Shown: positions 3,647 to 28,615 of the stretch, piece after piece
Layout: each line of letters begins with the position of its first letter
Numbering within the stretch: position 1 is the first letter of the stretch
IMG/VR virus record: IMGVR_UViG_3300035661_000219
Span: 1-32,806 of that record
DNA: 32,806 nt
Source: a virus
Reading direction: 5' to 3' (one strand)
Notes under the pieces: generated by a model
What the model saw: the letters and a program-made list of their open reading frames with translations, nothing else
Database searches by the model: none
Told to the model about the DNA's origin: nothing
Program-made: the position numbers and the translations under genes

Positions 3647-3740
3647 TATAATCGATAATCGTTAGCATGGTTTTCGGTTGTCGAATGCCTCGACCGATAG
3701 ATTGGTAGAAATTAGTATCGCTACCATCGATCCACATCAT
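3627..3740 (-). pseudogene. Remnant of SF2 helicase (motif VI region)
   Basis: A 37-codon frame reads MMWIDGSDTNFYQSIGRGI, then RQPKTMLTIIDYIDIV. QSIGRGIR fits helicase motif VI (QxxGRxxR), and the following segment resembles the end of the UvsW-type helicase core, where motif VI is followed by a beta strand ending in D-x-x-D. All earlier motifs are missing, so I read this as the tail of a decayed or recombined helicase gene, although a short functional peptide cannot be excluded. It starts just after the stop of the gene at 3742-3966, and its 3' end runs into the 13-bp repeats. Confidence 0.5.
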
Positions 3741-3741
3741 A

Positions 3742-3966
3742 TCATCTGCCGATGTTCCACACCTTGTCGGATACTTGTGCGAAGGTTACATTAAATTTTA
3801 ATCCAATAAGACATGCTTCTTCGGATGTGCAATCAACATCAATAAATCGAATAGGAAAATTATTTGCCCATCCTTGGCTAGCAATTGCATAATTCTGATC
3901 TATAATATATTTCCTTAAATTATAAAATAGATTGTTTGTTACACTTGCGATAATTCTATACTTCAT
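3742..3966 (-). CDS. Small alpha/beta protein (74 aa)
   Basis: One of a set of 64-90-aa proteins in this window that share a layout: a short N-terminal strand (MKYRIIASV), a helix, then a strand followed by T/S-E-E-A and a hydrophobic helix (DVDCTSEEACLIGLKF). The layout resembles a ferredoxin-like or ACT-like fold, but this is inferred from pattern only. It follows the gene at 3969-4325 with a 2-nt gap. Confidence 0.7.
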   Translation of the reverse strand: MKYRIIASVTNNLFYNLRKYIIDQNYAIASQGWANNFPIRFIDVDCTSEEACLIGLKFNVTFAQVSDKVWNIGR

Positions 3967-9504: not shown

Positions 9505-10296
9505 TTATGATTTTAGATGAATTTTATTAATATGATCTTTTATACGGTTTATTCCAATCATCTTAAGACAATGCGGACATTCTTCTTTTCGATAAACTAT
9601 TTTTGTCTCATATGTTACACCTTTATTCCAGGGTGTAATTGCAATTTCGGCTTTCGACTGCCTCATCTTGTCTTTAATCTCTTTAGACATCTTTCCTTTT
9701 TTCTTCCTAATAACCTTTTTTCTTTTATTTGTTATATCTATAAAGAACCAGGTAGGATATAATTTCGAGTTGCACCGAGTGGTTACCCTATTATAATTAT
9801 CGAATCCGACAGCTTTTGCAGCGTCCTTTAGAGATTCATAAATTATGTTATCAATCGATACCCTTTTCTTTTTAAGTGCAGATTGTTTTGCACAAGTTTC
9901 GTCTGTTGAAGCTATACCTTTATTCCACGCCGGCATACTCCGTTTAGTGCCTTTTAATGGCGATGGAAGTGATGAACGCAAATCAGAATACCTTCTTCGC
10001 GCCCATCCGTATAATTTATTATTTCGATTTTTACCTTTTCCTGACAAATACATTATGGCACAAAATAACAATATATTTTTAGGATGAATTTTGCATAATA
10101 ACCCGTGTGCTAAATAATGTTCTTCAGGAGTAAGATACACAAGATTATCACTATCGTTAGTGCCACCTAACGTCCTCGGAATTATATGATGTTGCTCCAC
10201 ATAACCAATTTCGACAACTAAATCTTTTTTGAGTTTACCTTGTTGTCGTAGCTGACCACGTTCGATCAATTGATTATAAATGCGAGAATAGTCCAT
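9505..10296 (-). CDS. HNH homing endonuclease with C2H2 finger
   Basis: A 263-aa protein. The HNH nuclease core has H36-H37 in EQHHIIP, N47 and N51 in GGTNDSDNL, and H60. A NUMOD-type DNA-binding segment follows (IYESLKDAAKAVGFDNYN). The tail holds a C2H2-like zinc finger: C240-x2-C243 and H255-x4-H260. NUMOD plus zinc finger suggests a target site several turns long. No Shine-Dalgarno is visible; a late-promoter-like octamer sits 4 nt before the ATG. Confidence 0.92.
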   Translation of the reverse strand: MDYSRIYNQLIERGQLRQQGKLKKDLVVEIGYVEQHHIIPRTLGGTNDSDNLVYLTPEEHYLAHGLLCKIHPKNILLFCAIMYLSGKGKNRNNKLYGWARRRYSDLRSSLPSPLKGTKRSMPAWNKGIASTDETCAKQSALKKKRVSIDNIIYESLKDAAKAVGFDNYNRVTTRCNSKLYPTWFFIDITNKRKKVIRKKKGKMSKEIKDKMRQSKAEIAITPWNKGVTYETKIVYRKEECPHCLKMIGINRIKDHINKIHLKS

Positions 10297-14674: not shown

Positions 14675-14884
14675 TTAGTAAATTATTTTGTCACTATTTA
14701 ACAAATCACGCAATTCTTGTGCCCTGATCCGTTGTTCGTGTTCTTCGTGGACCACCCCAAAAGGAAACTCAGCAACGATACCACGGTGTGACCCTTCGCT
14801 CATCTCTTTCTCTGTCGCATCAGTGACGATAACCGAGATATTCTTATCTGACTGAATCCTAGTTAAAACTTCGAAAGTTCTCAT
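14675..14884 (-). CDS. Hypothetical protein (69 aa)
   Basis: Starts MRTFEVLTRIQSDKNISVIV. The C-terminal half is a charged helix (HEEHEQRIRAQELRDLL). Its start overlaps the upstream stop (ATGA). Confidence 0.7.
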   Translation of the reverse strand: MRTFEVLTRIQSDKNISVIVTDATEKEMSEGSHRGIVAEFPFGVVHEEHEQRIRAQELRDLLNSDKIIY

Positions 14885-15273
14885 TTTGATTCCTTAGTTT
14901 TGTTTAACCGTTTCCATGATGCCCAAAATGCTGGCCCAATATCCATAGAAACATAATCGTCTCCTTGAAGACCTTGTTCAGAATAATGCACATTTTGGAC
15001 AGCTTTTATGCTGAAACCAAATTCACGTAAAGACTTTTTTAATTCCTTTAACCATAGTTTGTCAGTATAGATTAAACCGTAGCCCGGAACATTCCAAGAG
15101 TTCGGAGTAAAACCGTGGGAAATAAAATGGGCCCTCAATTCGCCATTGAACGGATCCTCTGGATAATATGTTTTACTTGTGTAACCAATAGAAAGTTTAA
15201 CAATTTCGATTGATCGAGCTTCTTCGGACCACAGTCCTTTTCCGTTAGTGTGCGTAAGAAATGAGACATCCAT
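14881..15273 (-). CDS. Hypothetical protein (130 aa)
   Basis: Starts MDVSFLTHTNGKGLWSEEAR. Aromatic-rich soluble protein, no recognisable domain. First gene after the duplicated promoter cassette; the operon continues leftward through the lipoprotein and L7/L12-like genes. Confidence 0.75.
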   Translation of the reverse strand: MDVSFLTHTNGKGLWSEEARSIEIVKLSIGYTSKTYYPEDPFNGELRAHFISHGFTPNSWNVPGYGLIYTDKLWLKELKKSLREFGFSIKAVQNVHYSEQGLQGDDYVSMDIGPAFWASWKRLNKTKESK

Positions 15274-15302
15274 GTTCGACTCCAGTTATTTAATATACAC
15301 AT

Positions 15303-15331
15303 ATTATATAAGGAAAATAAAAAGATGTCAA
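15303..15331 (-). promoter_or_regulatory. Sigma70-type promoter (duplicated cassette)
   Basis: TTGACA (15331-15326), 17 bp, TATAAT (15308-15303). Copy of 6664-6692. It starts 9 nt after the terminator of the long RNA. Confidence 0.9.
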
Positions 15332-15339
15332 CAGGAAAC

Positions 15340-15370
15340 AAAAAAGCCCACATAATTTATATGTAGGCTT
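15340..15370 (-). terminator. Rho-independent terminator of the long RNA
   Basis: Arms AAGCCTACAT (15370-15361) and ATGTGGGCTT (15353-15344) form a 10-bp stem with one G-U pair, followed by UUUUUU (15345-15340, sharing its first bases with the stem). It ends the transcript begun at 16125-16153. Confidence 0.85.
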
Positions 15371-15631
15371 CCTTGCACTGCTTTACTATTCTCTAATATT
15401 ATATCATCTATATTACATTTCGGATATTTTAGTATCTGAAAGTGGTACGGGCATATATCGCCCTATTGGGGTGGGCTAGGTTCCTTTGAATAAAATCTCC
15501 ATGGCAAGTAAAGTCGCTCAAGTTTATGTTATCAAGACCTTACATCTTTACATGTAAGACCATAAAAGTATACCATGTTGGTTTGGCGATGTCATAACCG
15601 ATCATCTCCCAACAGTGGGTTGTGTTCTATA

Positions 15632-15747
15632 CACAATACTAACACGGCGAGAATCTCCCTGTTTCCAGTGGATCCCGAACGATTCTACAAACCGTGCAGT
15701 TTCGAGACTTTCATTCCTGAAGAAATCGGGGTCTCTCATCAGTTGTG
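15632..15747 (-). ncRNA. Hammerhead ribozyme (type I)
   Basis: All core parts are present in order. Stem I 5' strand CACAA (15747-15743); CUGAUGA (15742-15736); stem II GAGAC (15735-15731) with GUCUC (15708-15704), extended by UUUC/GAAA inside the loop; conserved GAAA (15703-15700); stem III ACUG-CACGG paired with CCGUG-u-UAGU (15647-15638), closing a 44-nt structured loop; cleavage triplet GUA (15639-15637); stem I 3' strand UUGUG (15636-15632). Helix I is the open one, hence type I. Predicted cleavage is between 15637 and 15636, splitting the host transcript into about 482 and 297 nt. Confidence 0.9.
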
Positions 15748-16000
15748 ACCATTATTCTATTAAGTGTTTATCGACGCTCCCGTCTATTCGGACCTTAACC
15801 GACCAAAGAACGCGATGATCATTCCAATCACATGCCCGCATATATTACACCGTGCTTCTTGGGTGGGACACGGTCATATCCTTCTCCGGATAGTCGTTTA
15901 ATTTCTAAGGGGAATTGAAACCCCGAACTAGCAAATATAAGATTTCTAGCGCCACACCTTTATAATATATGGATACTTCAATAGTAGAGCCACATATTAT

Positions 16001-16113
16001 GACAGAAATTAAAGGAAGATGCATTGCACAGGGTGGGATCATTGGCGCAGCATCCTATTCCTATGCTTCCGTGCGTCAAATTATCTACAATGCACCTACC
16101 TTTAATCACTGTC
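16001..16113 (-). other. Long near-perfect hairpin at the 5' end of the RNA
   Basis: Arms 16113-16088 and 16026-16001 are 26 nt each and pair with 22 Watson-Crick pairs, two G-U pairs and two U-U mismatches, around a 61-nt loop. It begins only about 5 nt after the predicted transcription start. G-U and U-U differences confined to one strand favour a fold of the minus-strand RNA rather than a DNA palindrome. Confidence 0.8.
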
Positions 16114-16124
16114 TAACTGTATTT

Positions 16125-16153
16125 ATTATACAACTCTACTGCTATTGTGTCAA
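16125..16153 (-). promoter_or_regulatory. Sigma70-type promoter of the long RNA
   Basis: TTGACA (16153-16148), 17 bp, TATAAT (16130-16125). No gene starts within 800 nt downstream. It lies just after the ligase stop codon. Confidence 0.88.
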
Positions 16154-16157
16154 AAGG

Positions 16158-17516
16158 TTAAACAATAGCAGCAGCAAATTGAGCTTCGATCTCTGCAAAT
16201 GTATCTGCAACAGTCTTATCTTCACGCTCCTCAATTAAGCGTGGTAAGAACAGCGAGTGTTGTTTGCCAGCTTTAGTCGAATACATGATACCATTCGAAC
16301 GGATAGTAACAATCTTACCCAACCATTCTTCTCTATGATTACTGATATAGATACGCAGCTCATCACTTATGCCTGATGCACCACATTCAAGTAAAGCATC
16401 TGCACTCTGACAAGTAAGTGATCCAAATAGATCCTTATTCTTATTCTTACCGGGTGCAAAACCCACAACAACAAGTTCGATGTCCATAACTTCTTTCTGC
16501 TTGACCAAATCCTTCGATGTACCGTCTTTCCATATTGCATGGCGACTCTTACATACAGTACCTTCTAATTTACGCTTGCGCATTTCACGATAGTGTGCTA
16601 ACGCTTCATCGGGACTATAGACAATCTTTGTTTCAATCAATTTAATTTGATCAGAATTGCTTGCATCCAGTTGCCACTCCAGCGATGTGTATCGTTCGTG
16701 ATAAGAAAGATCGTATTTGCCTTTTGGAACAAAGGATGACAGCGGGATCTGATCCCAACAATCATACACAACAACTTCGCCAGCACCTAGTTCGCCACCT
16801 TTAGAAAGAGAATTCAAAATTCCATTACCAATCTGTCGTTCTAGCATTACACCGTTGCGATATACAGTAAGCTCACCGTGTGTGCTTGTTCCGTGTGTAA
16901 AGGTGTCTTTAGCTGCCTGTTCGATACCCAACGCACCGGTTGGCATTAGTGTGCCTCCACGCGAAGTAACCCAGACAAAGCCATCCTGACGCACATTCAC
17001 ATACGCAAACATTCCATCTGCTTTGATCTGTGAATATACGCCCTCGGTCCAATCCCATTCTTCCATATTTGATTTCTCTGGAAGAGAGCATCGCATGTAA
17101 GGTGTGACAGGAATCTCGTATGCTTCATTAATTCCTTTTACAGATTTATTCACCGTGGATTCGCTAAAGCCTGAACCCAAGTCTTTTATTAAAATCTTTC
17201 GATACCAGCCGTTCCATTCTTCGTTGGTAGCCATATCCATGTATTGTCTGATCAATGTAGCAGCATGATGGCCGGTGGCTTGACGTTTTATAAGTGCATT
17301 TGCTAACACTGTAAAAGCATTAAAGCTGAGACCGGCACCGTCGTCACCGAAGCGCTCTGGCACCTGTTTAACACCGAATGTATCAATGTTATCCAATGCA
17401 TAACGCAAACCAGCAAAGAAATCGTTGTTGCTTAATTTAGCTTCACGATTGATAACAGCTTCTTTGAACAATTTGCTATTGTCGGATGCAATTTCTGCGA
17501 TTAGTTTATGTGTCAT
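16158..17516 (-). CDS. ATP-dependent DNA ligase, T4 gp30-like
   Basis: 452 aa, near the 487 aa of T4 ligase. Adenylation lysine in the motif K165-A-D-G168 (T4: K159). Later motifs include SRGG (III-like), HGELTVY, EGTVCKS (IV/V region) and LVKQK (motif V lysines), followed by an OB-fold-like C-terminus. It seals nicks in replicating and repaired phage DNA. The ATG at 17516 overlaps the upstream stop (ATGA); a TTG at 17525 is a less likely start. Second gene of a unit driven by the leaderless-type promoter at 17942. Confidence 0.95.
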   Translation of the reverse strand: MTHKLIAEIASDNSKLFKEAVINREAKLSNNDFFAGLRYALDNIDTFGVKQVPERFGDDGAGLSFNAFTVLANALIKRQATGHHAATLIRQYMDMATNEEWNGWYRKILIKDLGSGFSESTVNKSVKGINEAYEIPVTPYMRCSLPEKSNMEEWDWTEGVYSQIKADGMFAYVNVRQDGFVWVTSRGGTLMPTGALGIEQAAKDTFTHGTSTHGELTVYRNGVMLERQIGNGILNSLSKGGELGAGEVVVYDCWDQIPLSSFVPKGKYDLSYHERYTSLEWQLDASNSDQIKLIETKIVYSPDEALAHYREMRKRKLEGTVCKSRHAIWKDGTSKDLVKQKEVMDIELVVVGFAPGKNKNKDLFGSLTCQSADALLECGASGISDELRIYISNHREEWLGKIVTIRSNGIMYSTKAGKQHSLFLPRLIEEREDKTVADTFAEIEAQFAAAIV

Positions 17517-17935
17517 AATAACCAAATATTCTCTTTAAGAGCGAGTTTTTCATCCACGCTTAGTTTAGAAATAACACCACGCGCAACAATAGTTCTTGCC
17601 GCCGCAGCATCCTGTTTTTCCTTCAAATTATTTATTGAATCCTGCACATAATTGACTTTCCATTCTTCGGAAGTATATGTCAGTGTTTCGTTTATACCGC
17701 CAGTTCGTGTTTCATAATGAAACTGCACACTCGGTCCAGTTGATGTAAGTGTTACATCCACTGAGATACCAACCGAAATTGCCAATGCCTGCATATCCAT
17801 CAGCCGCTTCGGCAATGATGCAAGATATGCAGCTTTCTCGATAGCTTCCTGACGTTTAGATTCTTCATTAGCCAATCGTTTAGCTTCGGCTGCTTCTATC
17901 CGTTTTATAGCGTTTTGTGCTTGTTTAGTGTCCAT
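17513..17935 (-). CDS. Hypothetical coiled-coil protein (140 aa)
   Basis: Starts MDTKQAQNAIKRIEAAEAKR; the first 45 residues are a charged helix (likely coiled coil), the middle is strand-rich (ISVDVTLTSTGPSVQFHYET), the end helical. Function unknown; it shares an mRNA with the ligase. The ATG at 17935 lies 6 nt after a TATAAT box, leaving no room for a ribosome binding site, so the mRNA should be leaderless. Confidence 0.75.
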   Translation of the reverse strand: MDTKQAQNAIKRIEAAEAKRLANEESKRQEAIEKAAYLASLPKRLMDMQALAISVGISVDVTLTSTGPSVQFHYETRTGGINETLTYTSEEWKVNYVQDSINNLKEKQDAAAARTIVARGVISKLSVDEKLALKENIWLL

Positions 17936-20334: not shown

Positions 20335-20419
20335 TGGTGCGGGTAGATGGGTTCGAACCTCCATGGATTTCTCCGGCAAATTTTAAGTTTGCTGCCTATA
20401 CCTATTCGGCTATACCCGC
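20335..20419 (-). tRNA. tRNA-Leu (TAA)
   Basis: Acceptor GCGGGTA pairs with TACCCGC, discriminator A, encoded CCA (20337-20335). Anticodon arm GCAAA-CTTAAAA-TTTGC gives anticodon TAA. The long variable arm is as expected for class II. The T arm has loop TTCGAAC and one A-A mismatch in its stem. It starts 6 nt after the end of the GIY-YIG gene. Confidence 0.92.
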
Positions 20420-20425
20420 ATAATC

Positions 20426-21139
20426 TTATTTCTTCAATGCTTTAACGGCATTATAGTATCTTCCACTCATTGCTGCAAGTGATAAAGATAAAATATTTGC
20501 AGCATTTTTCATTCCGTTATCTTTTACTAATTTAACAATTTCGTTATAATCTGTTTTCCGTGGCCGCCCTGTTTGTCCACACCCTGCACCTAATTGTTTC
20601 TTATCCTCATACATTTTTGTTATGCTTGCTGATAAGTTATCCTTATGTTTTTGTGTCTTCTCTTTACCTTTATTTCCGCTACCGTTTTTATTACGAATCA
20701 TTTTATCAGCATTCATTGCACATGCCGTTTCTCGTCCGTATAACAATACTACTCGTTCCCATGGATTCTTATGTGTTCCATTCTTCTTTTGAGTAGACAT
20801 CATTTTATCGATAATTTCTTGATGTTTCATCGGGTTATCATCGACTGTATATCCTGATGAATTTCTTACCTGATTATAATATTTTCGATTCGTACCGTAA
20901 TATAATTCATCATCGGTAACAGAATTTAAATACTCTTCTTCTTTTTGTATAATTTCGGTAGAAGTCGTATTACTACTTTCCCATAAAATTTTACGAACAA
21001 ATAACTCAGGATGCTTATTATATGAATTCTTAAAAACTGTCCCGCTTCCGACATACCCGTCATCGGGTGTCCCTTGATGGCGTCCTATGTATTTTAGTCC
21101 ATTAGATGTATTAGTCCATTCGTATATAAATCCGTGCAT
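20426..21139 (-). CDS. GIY-YIG endonuclease next to tRNA cluster
   Basis: 237 aa. The GIY-YIG core at the N-terminus: GFIYEW (3-8), KYIGRHQG (16-23) and GYVGSG, with an acidic EIIQKEEEYLN helix. The C-terminal 40 residues (TDYNEIVKLVKDNG, then AANILSLSLAAMSGRYY) look like a helix-turn-helix for DNA recognition. No Shine-Dalgarno; a perfect late-promoter octamer ends 6 nt before the ATG. Its location against the tRNA cluster suggests that a tRNA gene is its target site. Confidence 0.9.
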   Translation of the reverse strand: MHGFIYEWTNTSNGLKYIGRHQGTPDDGYVGSGTVFKNSYNKHPELFVRKILWESSNTTSTEIIQKEEEYLNSVTDDELYYGTNRKYYNQVRNSSGYTVDDNPMKHQEIIDKMMSTQKKNGTHKNPWERVVLLYGRETACAMNADKMIRNKNGSGNKGKEKTQKHKDNLSASITKMYEDKKQLGAGCGQTGRPRKTDYNEIVKLVKDNGMKNAANILSLSLAAMSGRYYNAVKALKK

Positions 21140-23031: not shown

Positions 23032-23105
23032 TGCGCCCTGATGGTTTCGAACCATCGACCTACCGGTTATGAGCCGGTTGCTACTAACCCCTGAGCTAAG
23101 GGCGC
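23032..23105 (-). tRNA. tRNA with CAT anticodon (Met or Ile2)
   Basis: Acceptor GCGCCCT (23105-23099) pairs perfectly with AGGGCGC (23039-23033), discriminator A. Anticodon arm ACCGG-CTCATAA-CCGGT gives CAT. T arm GATGG-TTCGAAA-CCATC. The D stem is only three pairs (GCT/AGC). No encoded CCA. It could be elongator Met or an Ile tRNA modified to read ATA. Confidence 0.92.
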
Positions 23106-26979: not shown

Positions 26980-27174
26980 TTATACTTTTTCCCATACATT
27001 ATCGCTGCCATATTTAAGCACAAGGCTTAATAATTCTGCTTCTGTTGATACTATGTCAAAGTAATATTCATGTAAAAAAACACCCTGGTTACTAATTCGG
27101 AAGTCAGCATTCTTCTCTTTATCCCGGATTATCTGGATATCGGATCTAGGAACATATAAAGAGATCTTTATCAT
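26980..27174 (-). CDS. Short protein of the alpha/beta set (64 aa)
   Basis: MIKISLYVPRSDIQIIRDKE, then HEYYFDIVSTEAELLSLVLK. Coupled to the S11 peptidase gene by ATGA. Confidence 0.7.
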   Translation of the reverse strand: MIKISLYVPRSDIQIIRDKEKNADFRISNQGVFLHEYYFDIVSTEAELLSLVLKYGSDNVWEKV

Positions 27175-27932
27175 TTAGTCTTAACTAATGTCAACATGTC
27201 GGGTATTCTGGTATGTGCATTCCTACTACCGAGTAATATGAATATGCGTTGCCCTAGTGACGAGTTTATGATCATTACTAGGCACCCACCGGCCGGGACA
27301 GTAAATCCTGTTTTAGATAACACTATACTGAGTGTAGATGTGAGTGGGTTCGTATTACGAATTTTAACTGGTTTTCTACCAAGAATAATTTCTGCGTCAG
27401 ATCTACTAGATATATCTGTTATAACGGGGTTGAGTGATGCAACCATAAGTAATTTTAATAAGTCACGTGCAGTGCTGACATTACCGATATCTAATCCAGT
27501 CGGTTCTTTATATTGCGTATTAGTCATACCCAATTCTGTAGCTTTATTATTCATACTCTCAACACAATTCGGCAAATTGATACATAATATCTGTGCCGCA
27601 AAATTATCCGATCTGATAAGAGCAAGCGTTAATAATTCTCGTCTTGTCAATGTTTTCGTTGATCTAGGAATTGCACTCTGAACTTGCCTAATGACCGGGA
27701 TTGGTAATGATTCGGTAAGGTCCTGGTCTGCTGCAAGCAACGCTACGAGAAGTTTTGAAATCGATGCGATTGGTCGCACAATATCGCTATTTTGTTCCTT
27801 TAATATTGTACCGTCCTCACTTGCTACTAAGTAGCTCATTGTTATAGGTGGTCGAGATATATTACGATGCGGTTTGCTGTAACAATTAGTTGTTAGCGTA
27901 ATAGAAATTAATAATAATAAAAATTTATTCAT
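27171..27932 (-). CDS. D-Ala-D-Ala peptidase, S11 family (PBP7-like)
   Basis: 253 aa with the three penicillin-binding motifs in order and at family spacing: S57-I-S-K60, S108-D-N110 and K207-T-G209. An N-terminal hydrophobic segment (MNKFLLLLISITLTT) exports it to the periplasm. NTQYKEPTGLD matches the conserved loop before the third motif. It lacks the C-terminal beta domain and membrane anchor of PBP5/6, so it is closest in length to endopeptidase PBP7. It may remodel or weaken host peptidoglycan during infection or lysis. Coupled to the GIY-YIG gene by ATGA. Confidence 0.93.
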   Translation of the reverse strand: MNKFLLLLISITLTTNCYSKPHRNISRPPITMSYLVASEDGTILKEQNSDIVRPIASISKLLVALLAADQDLTESLPIPVIRQVQSAIPRSTKTLTRRELLTLALIRSDNFAAQILCINLPNCVESMNNKATELGMTNTQYKEPTGLDIGNVSTARDLLKLLMVASLNPVITDISSRSDAEIILGRKPVKIRNTNPLTSTLSIVLSKTGFTVPAGGCLVMIINSSLGQRIFILLGSRNAHTRIPDMLTLVKTK

Positions 27933-28615
27933 AAAAATTCCCAGCCAATATACAAATCAGATTTGCATCTAAGTCTTACTGTATCTTTTTTCAAATTATG
28001 AGATCTCCCTGCTTCTGCACAAGAAATAAATTCGCCATTAGGTGTTTTAACTGGCCGCATTGCTGCTAAGGGCTTAGTCGGAATTCCTCTAGTTTTATGA
28101 GTCCGAGGAATACCTTTCTGTGACAACGACATTTTCTGCTTTGATTCATCCGAATGTCGATAAGGGCTTGCTTCTTTCGTTTTTCTTATCTTCTCTTTAA
28201 CTTCTATTGTAGATTTCTTTCCTTTTCGAGCCACAGCACTCTTTTTCCTGTGTTCTTCGGATTTTGGTTTACCTTTGGAAGCTATCGACATTTTCTTTTT
28301 TGATTCTTCTGACAAAATCCTGCCGCTACACCCTTCTCCACCGTCTGTTCTGTTATTTAATATACCTGTACCTAAATCCTTGCGGCCATACCACTCAATC
28401 ATCCGACGCTCTATAGCAAATGCACCAATTTCAGTAAGGTTAGCTTCAAGTATAATTATATATCTACGATCTTTAGGCTGTGTAAAATGTTTATTAAACA
28501 TTCTCTTCTTCGTGCCTTTACCTATATAGTACGGTGTGCCAGCTTTTGCAGTGATAGAATCTGTATCACGCATATACGCATAGACATAAAATTCTAATGT
28601 AGGTAGTGTCTTCAT
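27929..28615 (-). CDS. GIY-YIG homing endonuclease with NUMOD3 repeats
   Basis: 228 aa. YVY (10-12), YIG (30-32) in [30 protein letters not shown] and NRTDGGEG are the nuclease core; NUMOD3-type repeats follow (SEESKKKMSIASKGK, SDESKQKMSLSQKG) and a NUMOD1-like end (ISCAEAGRSHNLKKDTV). Close relative of the enzyme at 6768, but on the other strand and with a sigma70 promoter giving a leaderless start. Inserted between a late structural-type gene and the S11 peptidase. Confidence 0.93.
   Translation of the reverse strand: MKTLPTLEFYVYAYMRDTDSITAKAGTPYYIGKGTKKRMFNKHFTQPKDRRYIIILEANLTEIGAFAIERRMIEWYGRKDLGTGILNNRTDGGEGCSGRILSEESKKKMSIASKGKPKSEEHRKKSAVARKGKKSTIEVKEKIRKTKEASPYRHSDESKQKMSLSQKGIPRTHKTRGIPTKPLAAMRPVKTPNGEFISCAEAGRSHNLKKDTVRLRCKSDLYIGWEFL

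Follow-up and report, generated by a model that had tools for sequence, protein, structure and literature searches.

The window, by which we mean the whole stretch of 32,806 nucleotides analysed (the 32.8-kb virus record IMGVR_UViG_3300035661_000219 of IMG/VR), contains a noncoding stretch flanked by a DNA ligase gene and a gene of 130 amino acids. On its own strand the RNA stretch has no ATG frame longer than 45 aa, and an 821-nt stretch is predicted to fold better than 20 of 20 dinucleotide shuffles (z -5.4). The RNA is delimited by a promoter and an intrinsic terminator and is approximately 782 nt long when its start is set 7 nt after the -10 box; within it lies a hammerhead motif, whose predicted cut would divide the RNA into fragments of approximately 481 and 301 nt (Table 1). 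Relatives of the 130-aa gene are found directly behind the RNA in three related loci, here numbered with the prefix L, at 61% (L023), 61% (L017) and 36% (the L019 record). Two relatives have a phosphohydrolase-like gene between the ligase and the RNA (L011:5534-6130, +, the copy assigned to phrog_19425, and L010:5559-6212, +). The window stretch that runs from just behind the terminator to the start of the next gene (15271-15336) includes a promoter-like sequence, and a 66-nt copy of this stretch with 98.5% identity is present at L003:3242-3307.

Table 1. Features of the noncoding RNA and its flanks in the window.
Feature	Position	Strand	Basis
DNA ligase gene, 5' of RNA	16158..17525	-	PF01068
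Sigma70-like promoter, TTGACA-17-TATAAT	16125..16153	-	17-nt spacing, also in relatives
M1, 5' hairpin module	16001..16113	-	sequence and MFE fold; analogous hairpins in relatives by eye
M2, 7-bp closing helix and T-arm-like hairpin (15909-15925)	15900..16010	-	covariation, 8 aligned sequences, 7 distinct
M4, CCCACCCAAGAAGCA hairpin, UGCGGGCAUG, small hairpin	15816..15895	-	aligned in 7 RNAs; pattern scans
Type I hammerhead ribozyme, predicted cut between 15637 and 15636	15632..15747	-	sequence descriptor, fold, covariance model, covariation
Stem I, CACAA / UUGUG	15747-15743 / 15636-15632	-	
Core CUGAUGA	15742-15736	-	
Stem II, GAGAC / GUCUC	15735-15731 / 15708-15704	-	
Core GAAA	15703-15700	-	
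Stem III, conserved inner motif (UUGU / C internal loop, pairing both sides)	15639..15699	-	8-copy alignment, by eye
U16.1 / A17	15638 / 15637	-	
Hairpin UUGUGU-AUAGA-ACACAA, start of 3' fragment, competes with stem I	15620..15636	-	fold
3' domain, conserved part (GGAGAU..AUUCAAA, then hairpin and CCACUU hairpin)	15396..15532	-	alignment, model R2
Intrinsic terminator	15340..15370	-	script search
130-aa gene, 3' of RNA	14881..15273	-	relatives after RNA in L023, L017, L019 record

Along the minus strand the hammerhead runs in the order CACAA-CUGAUGA-GAGAC...GUCUC-GAAA-stem III-GUA-UUGUG. Stem I, which has five pairs in the window, is the open stem, and the hammerhead is therefore assigned to type I; stem III and its inner domain include a proximal helix with one bulged U. 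A sequence-only reading of the window had described every core element on this strand with three pairing stems, and the letters and pairs bear it out; the cut position that it gave agrees with the mapped U16.1 and A17. It had also credited the RNA with its own promoter and terminator, both of which are located here, and with a length of about 780 nt and fragments of about 482 and 297 nt, all within a few bases of our values.

A descriptor scan of the window returned a single hammerhead element. In 200 dinucleotide shuffles there were two matches at a loose setting (stems of at least 4/3/3); when at least 5 bp were required in each of stems I and II, no match was left. Covariance models, which the sequence-only reading had named as a check on the hammerhead, gave a divided answer: the Rfam 15 hammerhead models had no match to the window at the gathering score, and none in 15270-16170 at E <= 10, but a model built from six related phage RNAs with the window excluded (R1) matched clearly, at 44.7 bits and E 2.7e-8, as the sole match up to E 10. 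R1 also located a hammerhead copy in a 385-kb record, and the L019 record carries a hammerhead outside the short stored L019 locus. Rfam hammerhead matches below threshold occur in three of eight related loci (L023, L011 and L017), and a match to an Rfam model is not what defines a hammerhead in sequence. By every sequence test except the Rfam thresholds, the ribozyme is a type I hammerhead. The host RNA has no match to an Rfam 15 family; weak matches in 15270-16170 (Thr_leader at the terminator, trpB, microRNAs and others) were sub-threshold and were taken as chance.

Relatives were found through the neighbouring ligase and through two patterns outside the hammerhead, representing modules M4 and M3 of the upstream RNA. 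Between them the two patterns pick out 13 viral contigs, 11 of which have a complete hammerhead (L002, L003, L010, L011, L013, L014, L016, L017, L018, L019 and L023). In L009 an HNH-like frame reaching to the contig end breaks into the hammerhead behind the GA of GAAA, and the L021 record has no hammerhead by R1 up to E 5 and none by a looser pattern. The L009 frame (L009:5842-6329, +) is HNH/AHH-like, starts inside the hammerhead and has an AHH family match below the cut-off; it may reflect a possible homing-endonuclease insertion site inside the ribozyme. The L002 and L003 RNAs are each 99.9% identical to that of the window, and with near-duplicates dropped there are eight distinct complete copies (window, L010, L011, L013, L017, L018, L019 and L023), in all of which the core CUGANGA, GAAA and UH and the core-adjacent pairs are kept. 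Some phages with this RNA are represented by contigs of 100-385 kb. Among named phages, blastn found no match for the window, L018 or L019 RNA; a single 43-nt match of the L011 RNA, to a Clostridioides phage helicase gene, was taken as chance. Pseudomonas phage Nican01, the sole phage examined from the ligase list, has a ligase 41% identical with a coding gene immediately behind it. A search of genome_contigs with the M4 pattern, which is blind to copies without M4, produced L024 and L025, by eye chance matches in coding DNA.

The three helices vary among the copies in a manner that preserves pairing. At the outermost pair of stem I six copies have A-U, L018 has G-C and the window is mismatched, and at the core-end pair seven copies have A-U and L019 has G-C; compensating changes are thus seen in two of six pairs, the other four being uninformative because they are invariant, and two such pairs were reached in 7 of 500 shuffles. 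The four pairs of stem II are complete in 8/8 copies, compared with 5/48 when strands are swapped between copies, and stem III is complete in 5/5 copies tested, compared with 0/18 swaps, although swap and shuffle counts are not probabilities here because the sequences are related. Stem II also pairs in the interrupted L009 copy, and five copies have GNRA-like stem II loops. Covariation accordingly backs a predicted fold of three helices with stem I open. Since the motif recurs at the corresponding place in diverged RNAs with compensating changes in all three stems, and since shuffles rarely yield it, we conclude from these comparisons of sequence that it is conserved and not a product of chance. 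The earlier placement of the hammerhead inside a long noncoding phage RNA is upheld by the same observations, and the promoter-to-terminator unit that it had proposed is seen in relatives as well.

Upstream of the hammerhead the RNA is composed of modules in the constant order M1, M2, M3, M4, not all of which are present in each RNA. M2 and M3 each consist of a closing helix of approximately 7 bp and a T-arm-like hairpin. In the two helices of M3, 96.4% of cells are paired and both sides have changed in 7/12 pairs; the corresponding values for M2 are 98.7% and 4/12, the M2 closing helix being less sure because of an overlap between its 5' strand and the M1 base. This closing strand can also extend the M1 base, a possible alternative pairing (window 16001-16113, L010:6195-6840, L018:5880-6300 and L021). 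M2 and M3 may be called tRNA-like by resemblance, in respect of the closing helix and T-arm-like hairpin only; neither Rfam nor ARAGORN calls a tRNA in the window RNA, and Rfam reports none at M2 or M3 in the related loci searched. The window RNA lacks M3, which was not seen in the L019 stretch either; L010, L017 and L023 have no M4, and by eye L013 has no M2. L010 and L018 seemingly carry two or three copies of the 5' hairpin. In L017, L018, L019 and L021 some of the modules are separated by small ORFs.

Transcription signals recur in the relatives. A promoter with 17-nt spacing and 0-1 mismatch precedes the RNA in the window, L009, L010, L011, L013, L017, L018 and L023; L021 has two-mismatch candidates, and no promoter was evident in the short L019 locus. 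Terminators were identified by script in the window, L010, L011, L017, L018 and L023 and not in L009, where the contig ends, L013, L019 or L021; terminator-like hairpin ends are visible by eye in L013 and in the longer L019 stretch.

The relatives also conserve a 3' domain that follows the hammerhead. A model of this domain (R2), run on ten whole records, matches six at E 1.2e-11 or better (L019, L018, L010, L003, L023 and L017), all with the hammerhead, and matches neither the L021 record, which has upstream modules without the hammerhead, nor L026, L027 or L028. Hammerhead and 3' domain occur together in six of the seven whole records that contain the RNA; the seventh, L021, lacks both. Only the absences are informative, because the six matched records are training members or near-copies, and for the long RNA they rest on a single record, L021, which may be a fragment; this counts against the reading that we prefer. 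In L019's record M4 is set apart by three small ORFs from the hammerhead and 3' domain, which suggests that these two travel as a unit. From their co-occurrence and the L019 arrangement we infer that the hammerhead goes with the 3' RNA and defines its 5' end.

We propose, with moderate confidence, that the hammerhead in this modular phage RNA cuts and thereby sets the 5' end of a 3' RNA of approximately 300 nt, and that it probably frees this last part of the RNA as a separate molecule. Hammerhead cutting after A17 gives the upstream product a 2',3'-cyclic phosphate end and the downstream product a 5'-OH. The polymerase would first make the upstream modules; the hammerhead would then fold and cut after A17, presumably during transcription. 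The upstream product would be an RNA of approximately 481 nt with a 2',3'-cyclic phosphate end, and the product to be released a structured 3' RNA of approximately 301 nt with a 5'-OH and a terminator hairpin. Such a cut would uncouple the 3' RNA from upstream modules that vary, get lost or carry small ORFs.

The RNA may instead be cleaved and its halves not separated. One large ornate RNA in the style of GOLLD or ROOL would then be nicked while tertiary contacts hold the halves together, and nicking, or cleavage and re-ligation, would represent a maturation step of a single complex. The size, the phage origin and the combination of a conserved 3' with a variable 5' part resemble GOLLD as it is presented in the available part of its description (PMC12286853), and the conserved inner motif of stem III goes beyond the core. 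Nor is the predicted coupling of the two halves minimal at the cut, which ranks 21/29, 18/31, 7/33, 11/39 and 14/43 among the cut sites in five RNAs; this also counts against the release that we prefer. Against a single complex are the three ORFs between M4 and hammerhead in the L019 record and upstream modules that come and go among relatives, and there is no Rfam match to GOLLD or ROOL; we regard it as unlikely, while giving it appreciable weight.

Predicted folding bears on a further possibility, that the hammerhead fold is a structural piece whose cutting is slow or absent in the full RNA. The minimum-free-energy fold of the 116-nt hammerhead region alone is the hammerhead structure (-32.6 kcal/mol), but when 25 nt downstream are added ViennaRNA re-pairs stem I of the window, its probability falling from 0.74 to 0.00. 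With more flanking sequence the predicted stem I disappears in seven of eight copies, and in L018 it is weak from the start, which counts against release of the 3' RNA by cutting; a window stem I of just five pairs beside an oddly enlarged stem II also speaks for a structural piece. These predictions leave out tertiary contacts and the order of synthesis, however, and all catalytic core letters are kept in the eight distinct copies while stems II and III vary freely, so that a purely structural role appears improbable. We considered the hairpin at the start of the 3' fragment as a product trap, a shared device pulling stem I apart, and rejected it: shuffled downstream letters lower the probability of stem I similarly, the one modest exception being the window with 12 nt, where 11/200 shuffles are as low.

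It is still harder to see the hammerhead as a passenger, inserted by chance or as a mobile element in the manner of the homing-endonuclease frames at the same loci. Compact type I hammerheads with GUC triplets do occur in ordinary intergenic places (L026:2095-2146, +; L027:2418-2469, -; L028:14-64, +), with a similar stem I that the search pattern itself required; these are of the known phage and prophage kind and unlinked to the long RNA. The HNH-like frame in L009 and the ORFs between modules are also what a passenger would lead one to expect. Against this, eight distinct copies share the same place and an intact core with compensating changes, and in this RNA the hammerhead was never found here apart from the 3' domain; the passenger reading is very improbable.

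We attach scarcely any weight to the cut ends being rejoined, mutually or as a circle, by a phage RNA ligase such as RtcB, which acts on exactly the ends that a hammerhead leaves (2',3'-cyclic phosphate and 5'-OH): RtcB is encoded in three of seven records (L018, L019 and L021, the last without a hammerhead) and was not found in the hammerhead-bearing L010, L023, L017 and L003 records, which may be fragments and whose hosts could supply RtcB, and the one hammerhead found per RNA does not allow a simple circle. Rejoining by RtcB is thus not general. The RNA_ligase family PF09414 matches in two of seven records, L018 and L019 only; a search for T4 Rnl1-type ligases gave no match, and control genomes gave none either, so that this negative is uninformative.

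Release of a 3' RNA by a resident hammerhead would differ from what is described for related systems. Perreault et al. 2011 (PMC3088659), in the part of the paper available, place phage and prophage hammerheads near integrase and flanking genes and take them as mRNA trimmers. The present ribozyme shares with these the core, the three-helix fold and the phage setting; it differs in lying inside a noncoding RNA of folded modules, beside a conserved 3' RNA, and in its enlarged stem III with a conserved motif of its own. GOLLD and ROOL (Kretsch et al. 2025, PMC12286853) are likewise phage-encoded, several hundred nt long and highly structured, with no known protein, but neither has an Rfam match in the window or in eight related loci, and the word 'hammerhead' has a count of zero in the available portion of that paper; as far as that portion goes, the host RNA resembles GOLLD in style, not in sequence. 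Theta ribozymes (Kienbeck et al. 2024, PMC10879173), from the accessible text, are also small phage self-cleaving ribozymes positioned so as to define the end of an adjacent structured RNA; they have an HDV-like fold and are tied to tRNA 3' ends, whereas here a hammerhead would set the 5' end of an RNA of approximately 300 nt.

In the open-licence PMC literature, judged by titles and the starts of abstracts, no description of a hammerhead inside a large phage noncoding RNA was found. The ribozyme is of a known kind in an unusual setting, and its host RNA is apparently undescribed; new are the enlarged stem III with its conserved inner motif, the fixed place between the modules and the conserved 3' RNA, and the host RNA. 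Whether these constitute a new class of large modular phage RNA, in which a type I hammerhead resides alongside tRNA-like and other folded modules and releases a conserved 3' RNA, we consider evenly balanced. Such a class would amount to a noncoding RNA operon that processes itself, with the ribozyme defining the 5' end of a free structured RNA and not serving to trim mRNAs or viroid-like genomes. The tie between a hammerhead and one conserved partner RNA in diverged phages, on contigs of up to 385 kb, would make its role testable, and points to an RNA family outside Rfam 15 that is comparable in size to GOLLD and ROOL.

Elsewhere in the window, homing-endonuclease-like mobile genes are common, with examples on the minus strand at 20426-21139, 27929-28615 and 9505-10296 (phrog_314; NUMOD3; weak HNH / I-TevI-like match). 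ARAGORN reports a tRNA-Gly at 3691-3774 (+) that Rfam does not, and this call may be false because the tRNAs on which both programs agree (20335-20419 and 23032-23105) sit on the opposite strand. A D-alanyl-D-alanine carboxypeptidase-like protein (PF00768), unusual for a phage, is encoded at 27171-27932 (-).
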